A stretch of 37,493 nt of DNA from Leptolyngbyaceae cyanobacterium RU_5_1. Its GTDB lineage: Bacteria; Cyanobacteriota; Cyanobacteriia; Leptolyngbyales; Leptolyngbyaceae. The stretch is from assembly GCA_012034055.1 (NCBI GenBank), contig JAAUSG010000021.1, positions 1 to 37,493 on the forward strand, in the 5' to 3' direction. The notes beneath the pieces are model-generated. The model saw nothing but the letters and a program-made list of their open reading frames with translations. It was not told where the DNA came from and did not search any database. This document shows, piece by piece, positions 27,227-36,399 of this stretch. Within the stretch, counting starts at the first letter, position 1. Every line of letters starts with the position of its first letter. The translations under genes and the position numbers were made by a program.

Positions 27227-27600
27227 AACTTAAAACTTTTATTGCGAATCTAATTATTTAGCTGCAAATATTAACTGCGTTGGAGATAACCGTCATGATC
27301 TGATCATACTAAGCATTTGGTTTCTCTATCTTTAAAGCGGAATACCATCATGGGCTAGCGCCCAAATCATCAAGCCTGGTTTCCCTGTTTATTTAGGAGC
27401 GAAGCATCCAGTCGCAAAGCCTTTGCGAGAAGCATCTTTATAAGTGGGCACAAAAACAACTTCATATAACGTTGCAAGAGATTAGCCGGAAAGGGCGATC
27501 GATCCGCAGAGTTTCACTATAATGCACCCGATCAGTGCCAATAATTTTCGGGCTGTCTATCACCCGGTTCATTTGGTTCCCCGAGAGACGATCGCATCCC
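27227..27600. other. Intergenic region between divergent HAMP and MBOAT genes
   Basis: About 370 bp. It contains an imperfect hairpin around 27401-27437, where GCGAAGCATC and GCGAGAAGCATC flank CGCAAAGCCTTTGCG, a perfect CGCAAAG/CTTTGCG palindrome. No gene is seen. A frame extending the MBOAT gene upstream to 27535 is not supported by a ribosome site. Confidence 0.45.
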
Positions 27601-29090
27601 ATGAACTTCATCTCCATTACCTACGTTCTGTTCCTGCTCAGTATCATCATCTTCTACTGGTCGGTGGAGCAACAGCGGCGCAGAATGTGGATTCTGCTAG
27701 TCGCCAGCCTGGTGTTCTACGCCTCGTTCCAGGTGCAATACATCCCGCTCTTGCTGGCAGGAACGTGGATTAACTTCTGCATCGGACAGGCACTTTCAAC
27801 TCCCCCAGATTGGCGGATTGAGAACTGGCAGTTTGCTCAACAGGACTGGAATCGGCGACGGCTGAAGCTGCTCTGGTTTGGCATTGCGCTCAACATCTTG
27901 CTCCTGTTTGGCTTCAAGTACGTTCCATTTACGTTAACTACAATCGGCGAAATAGCGGGTTGGTCTGAGGCTCAGGGAATTGCTCAGTGGACCAGCAGCA
28001 ACCTGATTGCTCCACTCGGACTCAGCTTCTTCTGCTTCGAGTGCATTTCCTACCTGGTGGATGTCTATCGAGGCGCACCTGCTGCGCAACAGTTGCTCAA
28101 GTTCTCAACCTACAAATTGTTCTTTGCCAAGCTGTTATCGGGTCCCATCACTCGCTACCACGCCATGATGGGTCAAATGCAGCATCAAACTCGTCCTAGC
28201 GTCGATCGGGTTGCCGAAGGGCTGTGGTTGATTGCCTGTGGTGCAATCAAGAAAGGCTTGCTGGCAGACAATATCGGTATTCTGGTCGATTTGAGCTTCC
28301 AAAATCTGCAGCGGGCAGGCAGTGTGGATCTGTGGCTGGCAACCTTTGCCTACGGATTGCAGCTTTACCTGGACTTCAGTGGCTATGTGGACATGGCGCG
28401 AGGGACAGCCGTGCTGCTGGGCTTCAATCTGCCGCAAAACTTCAACTTTCCCTACTTCACCACCAGCATTGCGGATTTTTGGCGACGCTGGCACATCACA
28501 CTGGGAGACTGGCTGCGCAACTACCTATATTTTCCGTTGGGAGGCTCTCGCCAGGGGTTGTTCCGTACCTGCTTCAATTTGCTACTGGTGATGGCGATCG
28601 CGGGATTCTGGCACGGTGCGCCTGGGGATTTGTCGTTTGGGGCGGACTGCATGGTGTTGCATTAGTGATTCATCGGATTACAGACGCCATTTCCAACCGC
28701 AGCGAAACACTGAAGCGCTTCTGGCATCGGCCAACAGGTGTGGCCAGCGCCTGGTTGCTGACTCAGTTGACCGTGTTTGGTGCCTGGATTTTCTTCCGTC
28801 TGCCCAACCTGAAAGATTCCTGGCTCGTCGTGCAGCGGCTCTTCGGACATCCCGCCGATGCCCAATTTGCTCAAAAGGTTTACCTGGAAGCGATCGGGCT
28901 GCAACCGCTGCAAATTACCCTGCTCTTGTTTTTGCTAGTCGCTGTCATGGGCGTTGCCTACAGCTTCGAGCGCTTACTGAAACTCCAGCTCAACTGGAAC
29001 GTCAAGCTGATGCTAGTTCCCGCTTGCCTGTTTGCCGTCTGGCTTTTTGCTCCCCAAGGTGGACTGCCCTATATCTACTTTGATTTCTAA
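27601..29090 (+). pseudogene. MBOAT family O-acyltransferase, frameshifted
   Basis: An AlgI/DltB-like membrane-bound O-acyltransferase that would move acyl groups to an extracytoplasmic sugar or polymer. From the ATG at 27601 (MNFISITYVLFLLSIIIFYW) the frame runs through many membrane helices and both family histidines: H298 in WRRWHITL and H338 in GFWHGA. At 28620/28621 the frame breaks. As written it ends at 28665, but with one extra G the motif continues as HGAAWGFVVWGGLHGV and stays open to 29090, giving 496 residues of normal family length. So a single G has been lost from GCGGCC. No AlgJ/X-like or SGNH partner is adjacent. All catalytic residues lie before the break, but about 155 C-terminal residues with several helices would be lost. 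Confidence 0.85.
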
Positions 29091-29104
29091 ACCTTGGAGT
29101 GTGC

Positions 29105-29212
29105 TTAGGGACTTGCAAATAAATAAAGTACCCATATCCCAGTCTTTAGGGACGAATGGCCGTCCGTCCCTACCACGCCACTGGGATGTTATTTTCGTTG
29201 CAAGTCCCTTAA
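29105..29212. mobile_element. MITE-like element, family B, copy 1
   Basis: Terminal inverted repeats: left TTAGGGACTTGCAAATAAAT, right (reversed) TTAAGGGACTTGCAACGAAA. Within lies a second inverted pair (CCCAGT/ACTGGG) around a central palindrome TAGGGACGAATGG...CCGTCCGTCCCTA, which is close to that at 21040-21065. Copy 2 of the ends is at 31437-31565. It has no coding capacity of its own. The right arm supplies the 3' end of the adjacent APH-like gene. Confidence 0.7.
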
Positions 29213-30202
29213 AAGCTCTCTCATCAAACTTGGGATTGCCTCAACATATTGAGTTCGAGTGACTGCATCCATGTTTAATAGAACTGGTAGCCATCGTAAA
29301 GCAGCAGGAATTGATGACAGTTGCTGGGCTAGATCAAATGCGGCTTCTAATCGCTCCTTCGTCTCATATTTAACCCATGTTTCCAGGTAACATGCTGTGA
29401 GCCGTTCAAACCAGAATGAATGGCTTTCCAATTCAAATCGCTGGTCTAAATTGCCATAAACTCTGTGTAAACTGAAGAAGGGATGAGAAATGCTGCTATC
29501 GCCCCAGTCAAAGAATCTGTAGCATCCATCAAGGATAAAGATATTGCCATCATGCAAGTCACCATGATCAATTGTTTCTAGCACACCAAACGCTGATAAT
29601 TTTTCACACAACCTTGCAACACCATCAGCGCTATTTTGCAATTGCTGATATTCAGCTAAATTAAGTCCACTGGGATCATTTAAACCTAATATTTCGACAT
29701 TTTCTAGGAGTTCTTGGAACGCGGCAGGTAACACGGCTAGACGGCGATCGCATACACCCAGTTCCAGCAGTTCATCCACATGCAGCGCAGCCTCCTGCTG
29801 TAATTTTGCATAGGTTGGTAAAAGAGTTTCCCAGTGTTGAATATCATCAATCCTGGTTAGATTTTCTCGCAACCTTGCTCCTCCATCCATCATCATCAGC
29901 CATCCCTGCTGTCTATCAGCGGCTAGAATTTGCGGTACACAATCGGGATACCGATCAGACAGAGTTTGAGTGAGCGCGGCTTCATAAGCGAGATCGGAAA
30001 TAACTGCTTTGAAATAAATATCACCTGCACTCGTTGGGACACGCAATATGGTTGACCAGTGACGAATATGCGGCTGTGCGATCGCCCCCTGACGTTCAAT
30101 GCCGTGCTGATCCAACTTATCATCGATCCAACGATGGGCTTGCTCAAGCCAGGATGGCTGTATCCAAAGCATTCTGGAAGGATGGGGCTTATTCATTTGC
30201 AT
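29189..30202 (-). CDS. APH-fold phosphotransferase (aminoglycoside phosphotransferase-like)
   Basis: 337 residues with the bilobal APH/choline-kinase pattern. The N-lobe has YFKAVIS (probable ATP Lys) and a following YEAALTQTL helix. The hinge is near GWLMMMDGG. The catalytic loop is DHGDLHDGNIF, with Asp and Asn, and the metal-binding Asp is in YRFFDWGDSSISHPFFSL. Such proteins phosphorylate small metabolites or amino sugars; nothing here shows drug resistance. The last residues (LLRDLQRK) and stop are encoded by the right arm of a MITE-like element, so the native C-terminus has been replaced. Possible starts are ATG 30202, 30196 and 30172; the GGAGG near 30220 is too distant for an ideal fit. 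It is divergent from the Rieske gene. Confidence 0.78.
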   Translation of the reverse strand: MQMNKPHPSRMLWIQPSWLEQAHRWIDDKLDQHGIERQGAIAQPHIRHWSTILRVPTSAGDIYFKAVISDLAYEAALTQTLSDRYPDCVPQILAADRQQGWLMMMDGGARLRENLTRIDDIQHWETLLPTYAKLQQEAALHVDELLELGVCDRRLAVLPAAFQELLENVEILGLNDPSGLNLAEYQQLQNSADGVARLCEKLSAFGVLETIDHGDLHDGNIFILDGCYRFFDWGDSSISHPFFSLHRVYGNLDQRFELESHSFWFERLTACYLETWVKYETKERLEAAFDLAQQLSSIPAALRWLPVLLNMDAVTRTQYVEAIPSLMRELLRDLQRK

Positions 30203-30246
30203 CTGTGCATCATAATCCTCCTCCCTAAATTAACCAATAGGATGTA

Positions 30247-30274
30247 TTGATTATCAGGACTAAACCGTTATAGT
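30247..30274 (+). promoter_or_regulatory. Candidate sigma-70-type promoter for the Rieske gene
   Basis: TTGATT (30247-30252) and TATAGT (30269-30274) are separated by 16 bp. They lie about 40 bp before the ATG at 30314, in the 110-bp gap between two divergent genes. The call rests on consensus match and position only. Confidence 0.4.
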
Positions 30275-30313
30275 TTATGGTTCAGAACAGGGTGGTTGGG
30301 GGAAGAATGCACG

Positions 30314-31420
30314 ATGGAACTGGTAACGACCCTCAAAAGTCAGACGGTGCGCACGAGAATTCGAGATGTCGGAATTAACCCAAACCATTGGTATGCAGTG
30401 AGTTGGGCAACGGACCTGAAGGTGGGGCAGGTGATGCCTGTGAAAATTTGGGAGTGGGCGATCGCCGTCTACCGGGACATAAACGGTCAACTTCATGCCC
30501 TGGAAGATAGTTGCCCACGCCGAGGGGTGGCGTTGCACAAGGGCAAAGTCAAAGGTGCCAATTTAGCGTGTCGGTATCATGGCTGGGAGTTTGATAGCCG
30601 TGGGCAGTGTGTGAAAATCCCCTATCTACCACCAACCCAAAAGTTACCCTGTGCGCAGACTCGCAGCTTTCCAATTCAAGAGCTGCATGGGCTAATTTGG
30701 GTATTTCCAGGCGATTCCAGTTTGGCAGAAGCAAGCCAACCCCCATAGATTCCAGAGCTTTCCCAACCGGGTTGGTTGATGGTTCCAATCACGGGACACT
30801 TTCAGGCACACTTCTCGATCTGCAACGAGAACACAATGGACGTGTTTCATGGCGTGTTGCACGAAGATCTGCAGGGTTGGTTTGACCCGGTTTTAATTAG
30901 TCTGCAGGAGACTGATACATTGGTTTGTGCGGAGTACCAGATATCCTACAGAGGGCGGATGGCGCAGTTTTTGGGGTTGAGCGATCGCGCCGACCAAACC
31001 ACGACCCTACCAATCACCATTGAATATTGCTACCCGCACTATCGCAGCCATCTCCAGGGAATTTCAGCTCTCTACCTGATGCGGCTTCCCGTTGGCCCAA
31101 CGGAGAGTCGATCGTTTGCCATGTTTTTCTTCAAAGTCCGTCTACCCAAATGGTCGCTACGGTGGCTGCAACCCCTACTGAACAGTGTCCTGAGACGATT
31201 TTTCCTGCTCAAATTCATTGCGCAAGACCGAGAGATGATGGAGAGTGAACAGCAAACCCACCTAACCCATCCAGAACAGCTCTATGTGGAGATTAACCCT
31301 GCTATTATTGCGGTGCAACGCTTAACTGTTCGACAGTATGAGCACTTTGTGCAGCGATCGTCCGGTGAACTTCCAGCCAATAGGCGCAAAGAGATACTGG
31401 GTATCGTCTCGTCAGAGTGA
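30314..31420 (+). pseudogene. Rieske non-heme iron oxygenase with internal stop and lost cluster ligand
   Basis: A ring-hydroxylating-type oxygenase of about 368 residues if read through. The Rieske domain (about 20-140) has the second ligand pair CRYHGWEF, but the first is CPRRG where CPHRG is expected: codon CGC at 30518-30520 replaces the cluster-binding His. An in-frame TAG at 30746-30748 follows SQPP; the frame continues without shift as IPELSQPGWLMVPITGHF. The C-terminal domain keeps the mononuclear iron motif ENTMDVFHGVLHEDL (Asp, His, His). Both lesions are single transitions from the expected codons (CAC to CGC, CAG to TAG). As written only about 144 N-terminal residues would be made. 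The start ATG is at 30314, preceded by GGGGAAGAA. The original substrate is unknown. Confidence 0.85.
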
Positions 31421-31436
31421 TGCGATAACTTTTGAA

Positions 31437-31565
31437 TAAGGGACTTGCAAGAAAATAAGATGCCTGTGAATCGAGTTTCGACTGCGCTCAACTCTCAACG
31501 GCTGCGGGTTGAGCATAGTCGAAGCCCGGCTATTTGGGAACATTATTAACTTGCAGTTCCCTAAG
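31437..31565. mobile_element. MITE-like element, family B, copy 2
   Basis: The left end TAAGGGACTTGCAAGAAAAT matches copy 1 (29105). The right end reversed, CTTAGGGAACTGCAAGTTAA, is a decayed partner. The interior differs from copy 1: it holds the inverted pair TTCGACTGCGCTCAAC / GTTGAGCATAGTCGAA. So the two copies share ends but carry different inner palindromes. It lies just after the Rieske pseudogene. Confidence 0.6.
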
Positions 31566-31635
31566 TGACTCTGCCTAGAAGTAATTGACATTGGAACCTA
31601 TACTGTTTTGCTAGAGGCGATAGGCTATCTGGACA

Positions 31636-32124
31636 ATGTGGCTTGAGCTAGCATCCGACGAACATCATCTTGCCTTTGCTGAATGGGCCCAACATAATCG
31701 CCTGGAGGAGCAAACCTGCCGTCCGATCGCGAATGGCAAGAGGATTCCTCCGAGTCATGAAGTAATTACGCTTGTATTTCTCGTTGCTGGAATTGATGAA
31801 CCTGTAGGTCGTTTCAGATACTTTGACATCAACCCACGTAATCGCTCGGCTGAATTTGGATATACTATCAATCCTCAATTTAGACATCAGGGCATGGGCA
31901 CAAGAATGCTGAATCTAGCCGTTACGCATGTGTTTTCAAACACGAATTTGAATAAGCTGTACTGTCAAACTGCCGCATTCAATACTCCATCTATTAAACT
32001 ACTTGAAAAACTCAGTTTTCATCGGGATGGCGTATTACGAGAACACCATGAGCTAGATGGCAAACTATGGGATGATTGTATTTATAGTATTCTGCGCCGT
32101 GAGTGGAAAATAACAGATCGCTGA
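31636..32124 (+). CDS. GNAT family N-acetyltransferase (RimJ/RimL-like)
   Basis: 162 residues. Strand-rich core VITLVFLVAGIDEPVGRFRYFDINPRNRSAEFGYTI is followed by the acetyl-CoA pyrophosphate loop QFRHQGMGTRML (Q/RxxGxG/A). The C-terminal motif NLNKLYCQTAAFNTPSIKLLEKLSFHRDGVLREHHELDGKLWDDCIYSILRREW closes it. This is the arrangement of RimJ/RimL-type acetyltransferases, which modify N-terminal amines of proteins or small amines; the acceptor is unknown. The N-terminus is slightly short and starts at the ATG at 31636 without a strong ribosome site. The frame is intact. It lies 71 bp after MITE-like copy B2. Confidence 0.85.
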   Translation: MWLELASDEHHLAFAEWAQHNRLEEQTCRPIANGKRIPPSHEVITLVFLVAGIDEPVGRFRYFDINPRNRSAEFGYTINPQFRHQGMGTRMLNLAVTHVFSNTNLNKLYCQTAAFNTPSIKLLEKLSFHRDGVLREHHELDGKLWDDCIYSILRREWKITDR

Positions 32125-32157: not shown

Positions 32158-32305
32158 AAATGCTTACCCGATTACTCCCTCTACGTCAGAGATTGCCAAT
32201 TAACACTTACGTGCTGCGCACCGGTAGCCTCCGGACTCCTTTCAATGCTATTAAACCGGCAACAATAGACCCTGTATCTTTTAGGCTGTAACGACATTTT
32301 GTAAC

Positions 32306-32322
32306 TACAATTGGTTATTGTA
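32306..32322. promoter_or_regulatory. Perfect dyad before brnT, candidate BrnA operator
   Basis: TACAAT-TGGTT-ATTGTA is a 6-bp perfect inverted repeat with a 5-nt spacer, ending 14 nt before the brnT ATG. BrnT/BrnA modules are known to repress their own promoter through the antitoxin, so this position suits an operator. TACAAT or TATTGT could also serve as the -10 box. Confidence 0.4.
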
Positions 32323-32336
32323 CCGGTCGTTCAGGT

Positions 32337-32612
32337 ATGGAATACGAATGGGATGAAGCAAAGCGCTTTGCCAATCTTCGTAAACACGGGGTCGATTTTA
32401 CCGATGTCCCAGCCGTATTTGATGGTGATATTGTGACCATCGAGGACGATCGCTACAGCTATGGGGAGCAGCGTTTTGTCACCTTTGGTTTGTTGCAAGG
32501 GCGAGTGATTGCTGTTGTCCATACAGAGCGTGAGGATTGTACCCGCATTATTTCTGCAAGAAAAGCGACGAACTATGAACAACGAATCTACTTCGAGCAA
32601 CTCTCAAACTGA
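32337..32612 (+). CDS. brnT: BrnT-type toxin (ribonuclease), type II toxin-antitoxin
   Basis: 91 residues with the BrnT pattern: YEWDEAKRFANLRKHGVDFTDVPAVFDG at the N-terminus, then RYSYGEQRFVTFGLLQGRVIAVVHTERED and the C-terminal IISARKATNYEQRIYFEQL. BrnT is a RelE-like-fold ribonuclease that halts translation, and is neutralised by BrnA. The conserved basic and acidic residues (K in DEAK, H in KHGV, R in SARKA) are in place, so it looks active. It overlaps brnA by 38 nt, toxin first, as usual for this family. A perfect dyad lies just upstream. Confidence 0.92.
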   Translation: MEYEWDEAKRFANLRKHGVDFTDVPAVFDGDIVTIEDDRYSYGEQRFVTFGLLQGRVIAVVHTEREDCTRIISARKATNYEQRIYFEQLSN

Positions 32613-32850
32613 TTGGCAACGACTAGATGCAATGACGGATGAAGATATTGACTTATCTGATTGTCCGGAAATTACACCGGAAATGTTTGCGAAAGCAGTG
32701 GTGCGGCGTGGTTTGCCTGTTGCCAAAGCAAAAACTCAGGTTACACTTCGCATTGATAGCGATGTCTTAGAGTGGTTTAAGTCTCAAGGGCGAGGCTATC
32801 AAACACAGATCAATCAGTTGCTAAGAGCCTATATGGAGGCGCACCAGTAG
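32575..32850 (+). CDS. brnA: BrnA-type antitoxin
   Basis: 91 residues from the ATG at 32575, inside the end of brnT. The N-terminal half (DWQRLDAMTDEDIDLSDCPEITPEMFAKAVVRRG) is the part that typically wraps the toxin. The C-terminal half (KAKTQVTLRIDSDVLEWFKSQGRGYQTQINQLLRAYMEAHQ) is a ribbon-helix-helix-like DNA-binding domain. BrnA forms a complex with BrnT and represses the operon. Longer in-frame extensions upstream overlap the toxin more deeply and are not supported. The gene is intact, so the module should be functional. Confidence 0.92.
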   Translation: MNNESTSSNSQTDWQRLDAMTDEDIDLSDCPEITPEMFAKAVVRRGLPVAKAKTQVTLRIDSDVLEWFKSQGRGYQTQINQLLRAYMEAHQ

Positions 32851-35920: not shown

Positions 35921-36043
35921 TCATAGACGCCAGGACAGCACCTCATCAACCCACGGTAACAATGGGGCTGTGAGCGTTCCGCCTGGACTTGCCATTAGCG
36001 TAATCGTTGCTTCGGGCAGGTTTGCTCGTAGGGCACGCAACAT
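35921..36043 (-). pseudogene. Fragment resembling glycosyltransferase family 9 (heptosyltransferase-like)
   Basis: A 40-residue scrap reads MLRALRANLPEATITLMASP then GGTLTAPLLPWVDEVLSWRL. I recall the pattern 'LRALR...P.A.ITLL.SP.G....PLLPWVDEV' from the N-terminal part of GT9 enzymes (ADP-heptose transferases). Its start is fused to the broken 3' end of the SDR remnant at about 36040. After the stop, another frame (about 35934-35839) stays protein-like (PGVYELQCLNIPPEAVVLAG) but is not recognised. No complete GT9 gene is present. The identification is from memory of the family. Confidence 0.45.
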
Positions 36044-36399
36044 GCTTCGGATCTTGCAGTTTGTTCAACGGCGTATCTGGGAAGCGATCGAGAATAAAGG
36101 GCGTTTGCATTCCACCCGCCACGATCGCCGTCACTTTCACATGATGAGGACGGGCTTCCACATGCAGCGCGTGACTTAATCCCATCAATCCCCATTTACT
36201 GGCGTGATACGCTGTCGCATTTGCCCAGGTGCGTTTTGCAGCAGTTGAAGCAATATTGACGATATGCCCGTTGCCCTGCTGTTTCATCACAGGTAAAACA
36301 AACTTTGACAGCACAAACGGACCGCGTAAATTCACAAATGGCAGCGCCTAAACCCCGTCCACCCCCCGTAACCAGAGCAACTTTTCCACTCAATTCCAT
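36036..36399 (-). pseudogene. Short-chain dehydrogenase/reductase, internally deleted
   Basis: The N-terminus MELSGKVALVTGGGRGLGAAI (from the ATG at 36399, with the TGGGRGLG cofactor loop) is intact for about 21 residues. Then, at 36333-36338, the sequence jumps one frame over to VNLRGPFVLSKFVLPVMKQQ. This is followed by IVNIASTAAKR, the active-site YHASK and VTAIVAGGMQTPF, to DPKHVA near 36036. In a normal SDR about 80 residues separate these two parts, so roughly 250 bp are missing and the frame is broken. TGTGAA at the junction could be microhomology, which is inference. The C-terminus is also lost, replaced by a glycosyltransferase-like scrap. Not functional. Confidence 0.8.

Follow-up and report, generated by a model that had tools for sequence, protein, structure and literature searches.

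Rieske non-heme iron oxygenases of the type considered here combine a Rieske domain (PF00355) with a catalytic domain (PF19112), and a functional member is expected to present the ligand set CxH...CxxH, a mononuclear iron site and a frame that is open through both domains. Within the superfamily, the chlorophyllide a oxygenase of Micromonas is an oxygenase system in two polypeptide chains (PMC9615114). Duplicate-gene pseudogenes of bacteria are characterized by an intact redundant copy in the same genome, relaxed selection on the broken copy, a nonsense codon and a mobile element nearby.

The window, i.e., the whole analysed stretch of 37,493 nucleotides, is contig C218 of the Leptolyngbyaceae cyanobacterium RU_5_1 assembly, which comprises 382 contigs totalling 5.6 Mb (87.84% complete, 2.79% contamination). 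The oxygenase frame at 30314-31420 (+) is very probably a recently inactivated duplicate, that is, a pseudogene, of a cyanobacterial Rieske non-heme iron oxygenase. The initial annotation of this sequence had read it as a broken gene, an interpretation that is supported in part by the present analysis; the displaced-duplicate nature of the copy is beyond what that first reading could see.

The interrupted oxygenase frame and its intact paralog

The oxygenase gene occupies a single frame of 369 codons that ends with TGA at 31418-31420. It reads EDSCPRRGVALHKG around the codon CGC at 30518-30520 (+), where Arg69, within CPRRG instead of CPHRG, replaces the first Rieske His ligand, and ASQPP*IPELS around an in-frame TAG at 30746-30748 (+), which is codon 145. 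Besides this TAG the frame contains no internal stop, and its coding part aligns with the intact paralog without gaps or frameshift; both lesions are as first described. The second Rieske motif is present as CRYH; the CxH...CxxH set is incomplete, with Arg69 in place of its first His. Pfam places the Rieske domain PF00355 before the TAG (residues 25-111, 30386-30646, +; E = 9e-22) and the VanA_C domain PF19112 after it (E = 1.1e-06); the two domains are thus separated by the stop, and the frame is not open through both. The C-terminal remnant, counted from the first in-frame ATG past the TAG (30779-31420, +), carries the mononuclear iron site, whose stretch NENTMDVFHG..H and residue D305 are unaltered, as the initial annotation had noted. 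Judging by the family, H179, H183 and D305 would act as the iron ligands; each is kept in 99 of 99 homologs and unchanged in the window copy.

A query of the genome with the N-terminal part of the frame returned three places, namely the window, contig C268 (87% identity, open) and contig C71 (47%, open). The intact paralog that the first reading had proposed to look for is the C268 gene (G000:C268:12591-13688:-), which encodes 366 aa, retains CPHRG, is free of stops and shares 87% amino-acid identity with the window copy. It matches PF00355 (6.4e-25) and PF19112 (2.1e-05), and it is probably the working enzyme. The nearest solved sequence is dicamba O-demethylase DdmC (3gb4, 2.1e-29). The closest NCBIfam model is NF052579, for the 4beta-methylsterol monooxygenase SdmA; the match (E = 1.5e-69) scores 234.6 bits, below the curated cut-off of 600, and the paralog is therefore not assigned to SdmA.

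Homologs were collected from 109 loci, 102 of them distinct, with 29 coming from relatives and 80 from named genome contigs; the named loci matching the paralog are nearly all cyanobacterial. The column of Arg69 holds His in all 102 distinct homologs, a set that leaves out the cluster-less copies described below, and in all 99 with a CDS of at least 1000 nt; a natural Arg at this position, which the initial annotation had named as a possible counterexample, was sought among the 102 and found in none. That annotation had also taken both lesions for single transitions. This holds for CGC, one transition from the CAC of the paralog, and fails for TAG, which faces GAT in the paralog, more than one transition away. 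In the 102 homologs the TAG column is occupied by E (30), D (29), S (12), Q (4) and others, and a CAG to TAG transition would require an ancestral Gln, which is rare in the family. Three of the 102 homologs are themselves interrupted, so loss of this oxygenase gene copy is sporadic in the family: L111 (Prochloron didemni) and L136 (Leptolyngbya sp. PCC 7375) by a stop, and L126 (a Chroococcidiopsidaceae MAG) by a frameshift and stops.

Displacement of the duplicate and the downstream insert

The oxygenase frame lies within a duplicated segment (30225-31640, +) that is homologous to C268:12487-13778 (reverse) at ~87% DNA identity and is split by an insert at 31440-31561. On either side of this insert, identity to C268 is 86.8% (30225-31440 or 31441) and 94.9% (31562-31640). 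The two copies are sisters relative to 14 outgroups, with a branch support of 100%. On C268, the oxygenase gene is followed by a gene for a 425-aa PLP enzyme (PF00155), whose best NCBIfam models are bioF and related acyltransferases, including serine palmitoyltransferase, all under their cut-offs. This PLP-enzyme gene follows the oxygenase in 12 of the 14 regions from relatives, and the two regions that lack it hold second paralogs, from two genomes. No PLP partner accompanies the window copy, which is situated between a gene at 29189-30202 and a GNAT gene. Since the PLP neighbour is kept at C268 and absent here, the conserved locus is that on C268, and it is the window copy that moved. The flanking gene at 29189-30202 occurs in only one of 58 genomes, its own, and the empty site of the duplication could not be mapped via relatives.

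The copied segment stops ~14 bp short of the PLP-enzyme gene start and takes in a promoter-like stretch (31562-31632, +) with a TATACTGTT core, which precedes the PLP-enzyme gene on C268 and the GNAT gene in the window; the core was found in 10 of 12 intergenic sequences compared. Truncation of the GNAT gene by the duplication, a candidate raised by its Pfam match starting at profile position 17, was rejected, as the four closest orthologs share the position of its Met. Gene conversion at the 3' flank, considered for its high identity, was likewise not convincing in permutations: the length of the longest identical run (63) was reached in 119 of 5000, and that of the longest run when a single mismatch is allowed (70) in 404 of 5000; the joined alignment carried a superfluous base where the insert lies, which adds a spurious difference. 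In L044-L055, a Rieske oxygenase gene and the gene of an alpha-oxoamine-synthase-like PLP enzyme after it form a conserved cyanobacterial pair, with a gene of the FA_hydroxylase type nearby (PF04116, checked in L044 alone); the pair and this third gene perhaps belong to a lipid pathway.

The insert at 31440-31561 (+) is a MITE-like sequence of 122 bp with terminal inverted repeats GGGACTTGCAAG.../...CTTGCAGTTCCC. It is flanked by a target-site duplication TAA (left copy 31437-31439, +; right copy 31562-31564), represented by a single TAA in the empty site on C268. The insert folds as a long hairpin with its inverted ends paired (z -3.4). A second copy with 97% identity is located at C165:1851-1981, with TTA as the target-site duplication, and a matching end at C314:16114-16137, where only one end was found, adjoins a DDE transposase (PF13359) that matches the IS5 model NF033581 at 7e-19 (68.3 bits, below the cut-off of 140). 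In all, the assembly contains the element twice in full, plus a partial match to one end, and the insert, which starts 19 bp past the stop codon of the oxygenase frame, may be read as an IS5-derived miniature element.

Several other features were observed in the window. An MBOAT (PF03062) acyltransferase gene at 27535-29090 has an apparent frameshift near 28615, where the Pfam match stops and the apparent C-terminus runs on in another frame, and the stretch 29102-29211 is a dispersed repeat that is matched on nine further contigs of this genome. A BrnA antitoxin gene (PF14384) lies at 32509-32850, within 32336-32850, and the sequence ahead of it starts like BrnT; a 90% copy of 32285-32451 is located on C254. 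At 35946-36335, a short-chain dehydrogenase fragment covers only profile positions 107-186 of PF00106 and appears truncated or frameshifted.

Cluster-less paralogs in genus g7

In two genomes of the related genus g7, G006 (L140, L141) and G033 (L142), paralogs were identified that lack ~50 residues bearing all four Rieske ligands. Counted from the homologous Met, their frames (L140:1227-2141, L141:1539-2453 and L142:1564-2454) are open over 304, 304 and 296 aa, respectively, and the iron site is retained; in the two that were scanned with Pfam, L140 and L141, VanA_C was found and the Rieske domain was absent. Pairwise identity among the three is 65-72%. Between L140 and L141, dN is 0.19-0.20 and dS 1.2-1.5, values indicative of purifying selection; in the remaining two pairs dS is either saturated or could not be computed. 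Each of the three genes is divergent to an adjoining sensor kinase gene (HisKA_3/HATPase_c). Such copies occur in two of the eight g7 genomes, and class-wide, at E up to 1e-60, they were detected in two of 388 genomes, the other matches listed starting at query residue 71 or later.

Because these copies are open and apparently under purifying selection, loss of the cluster is in itself no proof of death in this family. The argument of the initial annotation that His loss speaks against another use of the protein is qualified by this comparison, and as a general rule the equation of His loss with a dead gene appears weakened. A broader proposal is that the family repeatedly yields cluster-less subunits, with the g7 copies kept as catalytic-domain proteins that either receive electrons from an intact neighbour subunit in mixed trimers or act as ligand sensors for the adjacent HisKA_3 kinase, and with the window copy, given its lost ligand and its stop at the domain boundary, as an early step of the same course instead of plain decay; we consider it very unlikely. 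The g7 paralogs would make it possible to test for reuse of a Rieske oxygenase's mononuclear iron domain in the absence of its own cluster, and they merit separate study.

Probable decay of the window copy and its interpretation

Pairwise comparison of the window and C268 copies (NG86) gave dN of 0.065 and dS of 0.483. In codon models of ten sequences, for which 8 of the 14 chosen outgroups were used, and with equal synonymous length assumed for both copies, omega was 0.242 for the window copy, 0.096 for the C268 copy and 0.095 for the background. Under this equal clock a single shared omega was rejected (2dlnL 13.95, 1 df, p about 2e-4). The comparison of dN/dS with homologs, which the first reading had suggested, thus reveals relaxed constraint on the window branch. 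As omega = 1 over the whole branch was also rejected under the equal clock (2dlnL 48.8), most of the history of the copy was constrained, and a simple switch from 0.095 to 1 would leave ~16% of the branch unconstrained by an arithmetic estimate. With free branch lengths, the window omega is 0.47 and omega = 1 is not rejected (2dlnL 0.36), so the dating of the loss of constraint depends on the clock; no closer species was found for dating the event.

Outgroup majority assigned 16 of the 48 amino-acid differences to change in the window copy and 6 to change in the paralog, and left 26 unpolarised. Among 91 columns conserved in at least 95% of 99 homologs (the 102 less three with a short CDS), the window copy alone departs at two (H69R, R322Q), the paralog alone at none, and both share departures at two more. 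Further changes at conserved sites of the window copy are Y316H and R323L (alignment columns 317, 323 and 324 correspond to residues 316, 322 and 323). The decay is slight, with one nonsense codon and zero indels in 1.1 kb; one stop is seen where ~1.5 would be expected for 35 neutral substitutions and ~9 for 220.

Several alternatives to a pseudogene were weighed against these data. An assembly or base-calling error that hides an intact gene could be invoked given the fragmented assembly and the apparent frameshift of the neighbouring MBOAT gene, but a few miscalled bases cannot explain 166 differences over 1293 aligned columns, both flanks are unlike C268, and the insert with its target-site duplication and the additional conserved-residue changes would remain to be accounted for. 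Two independent lesions would both need to be false, as the initial annotation had argued in setting aside a sequencing slip; we agree, and regard such an error as highly improbable. Still less credible, in fact hardly so at all, is a full protein with an altered cluster made by programmed read-through or recoding of the TAG. The frame is open on either side of it, yet TAG terminates 10 of the 26 other genes listed in the window and is an ordinary stop here, the window scan found no tRNA, and the His ligand is lost. The view of the initial annotation that read-through is unlikely is borne out. We judge it unlikely that the window copy, instead of being a within-genome duplicate, came from another strain as a stray contig or is a xenolog. 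The contamination estimate and the 13% DNA divergence, high for a recent duplication, speak for it; one genome is favoured because the assembly has a single gene for triosephosphate isomerase (TPI), which is on the window contig, and because the repeat and the insert have copies on other contigs, and neither flank resembles that of the C268 locus. Decay after a transfer from a near relative is conceivable.

Expression might also persist for the C-terminal remnant, which starts near 30779, and its product might serve without a Rieske domain as a catalytic subunit or a sensor, after the manner of the g7 paralogs. The stop sits between domains, an in-frame ATG follows 30 bases past the TAG, the iron site is intact, and cluster-less paralogs elsewhere are under apparent purifying selection. 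The C-terminal half is nevertheless as relaxed as the N-terminal one (omega 0.26 vs 0.24) and contains the changes R322Q, Y316H and R323L, no obvious ribosome-binding site was seen by eye upstream of the ATG, and the g7 copies retain an N-terminal stretch of ~63 residues that the remnant lacks. The window copy is not of the g7 cluster-less architecture, and a surviving remnant of this kind seems most improbable.

Three observations carry the diagnosis of a dead gene, namely the stop, a rate that is relaxed in each half and an intact copy elsewhere that makes this one redundant; the window copy probably yields no product. On the preferred reading of a recently inactivated duplicate, a segment of ~1.3 kb with the upstream region, the oxygenase gene and the promoter-like stretch was copied from the C268 locus to a new place, leaving the partner gene behind. 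For most of its history the displaced copy would have been held under amino-acid constraint, and only later would constraint have been lost and the nonsense codon, the Arg at the [2Fe-2S] ligand and the other conserved-site changes have been acquired, in an order that can be suggested only tentatively. An IS5-type miniature element also inserted just downstream, and the loss would have been tolerated as the intact C268 gene kept the function.

The locus offers a clear case of a displaced duplicate that decays while the copy at a conserved, operon-like locus stays constrained, and a warning for annotators that two oxygenases should not be counted here. The chlorophyllide a oxygenase of Micromonas, which reportedly carries its cluster and its mononuclear iron on different chains, is a working two-gene system, whereas the remnants in the window are relaxed in both halves. 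With Rieske oxygenases of the PF00355 and PF19112 type the paralog has its domains in common, and the window copy differs in lacking one Rieske ligand and in being cut by a stop. From the duplicate-gene pseudogenes of bacteria, whose traits it shares, it shows no difference in kind: it is an ordinary decaying duplicate.
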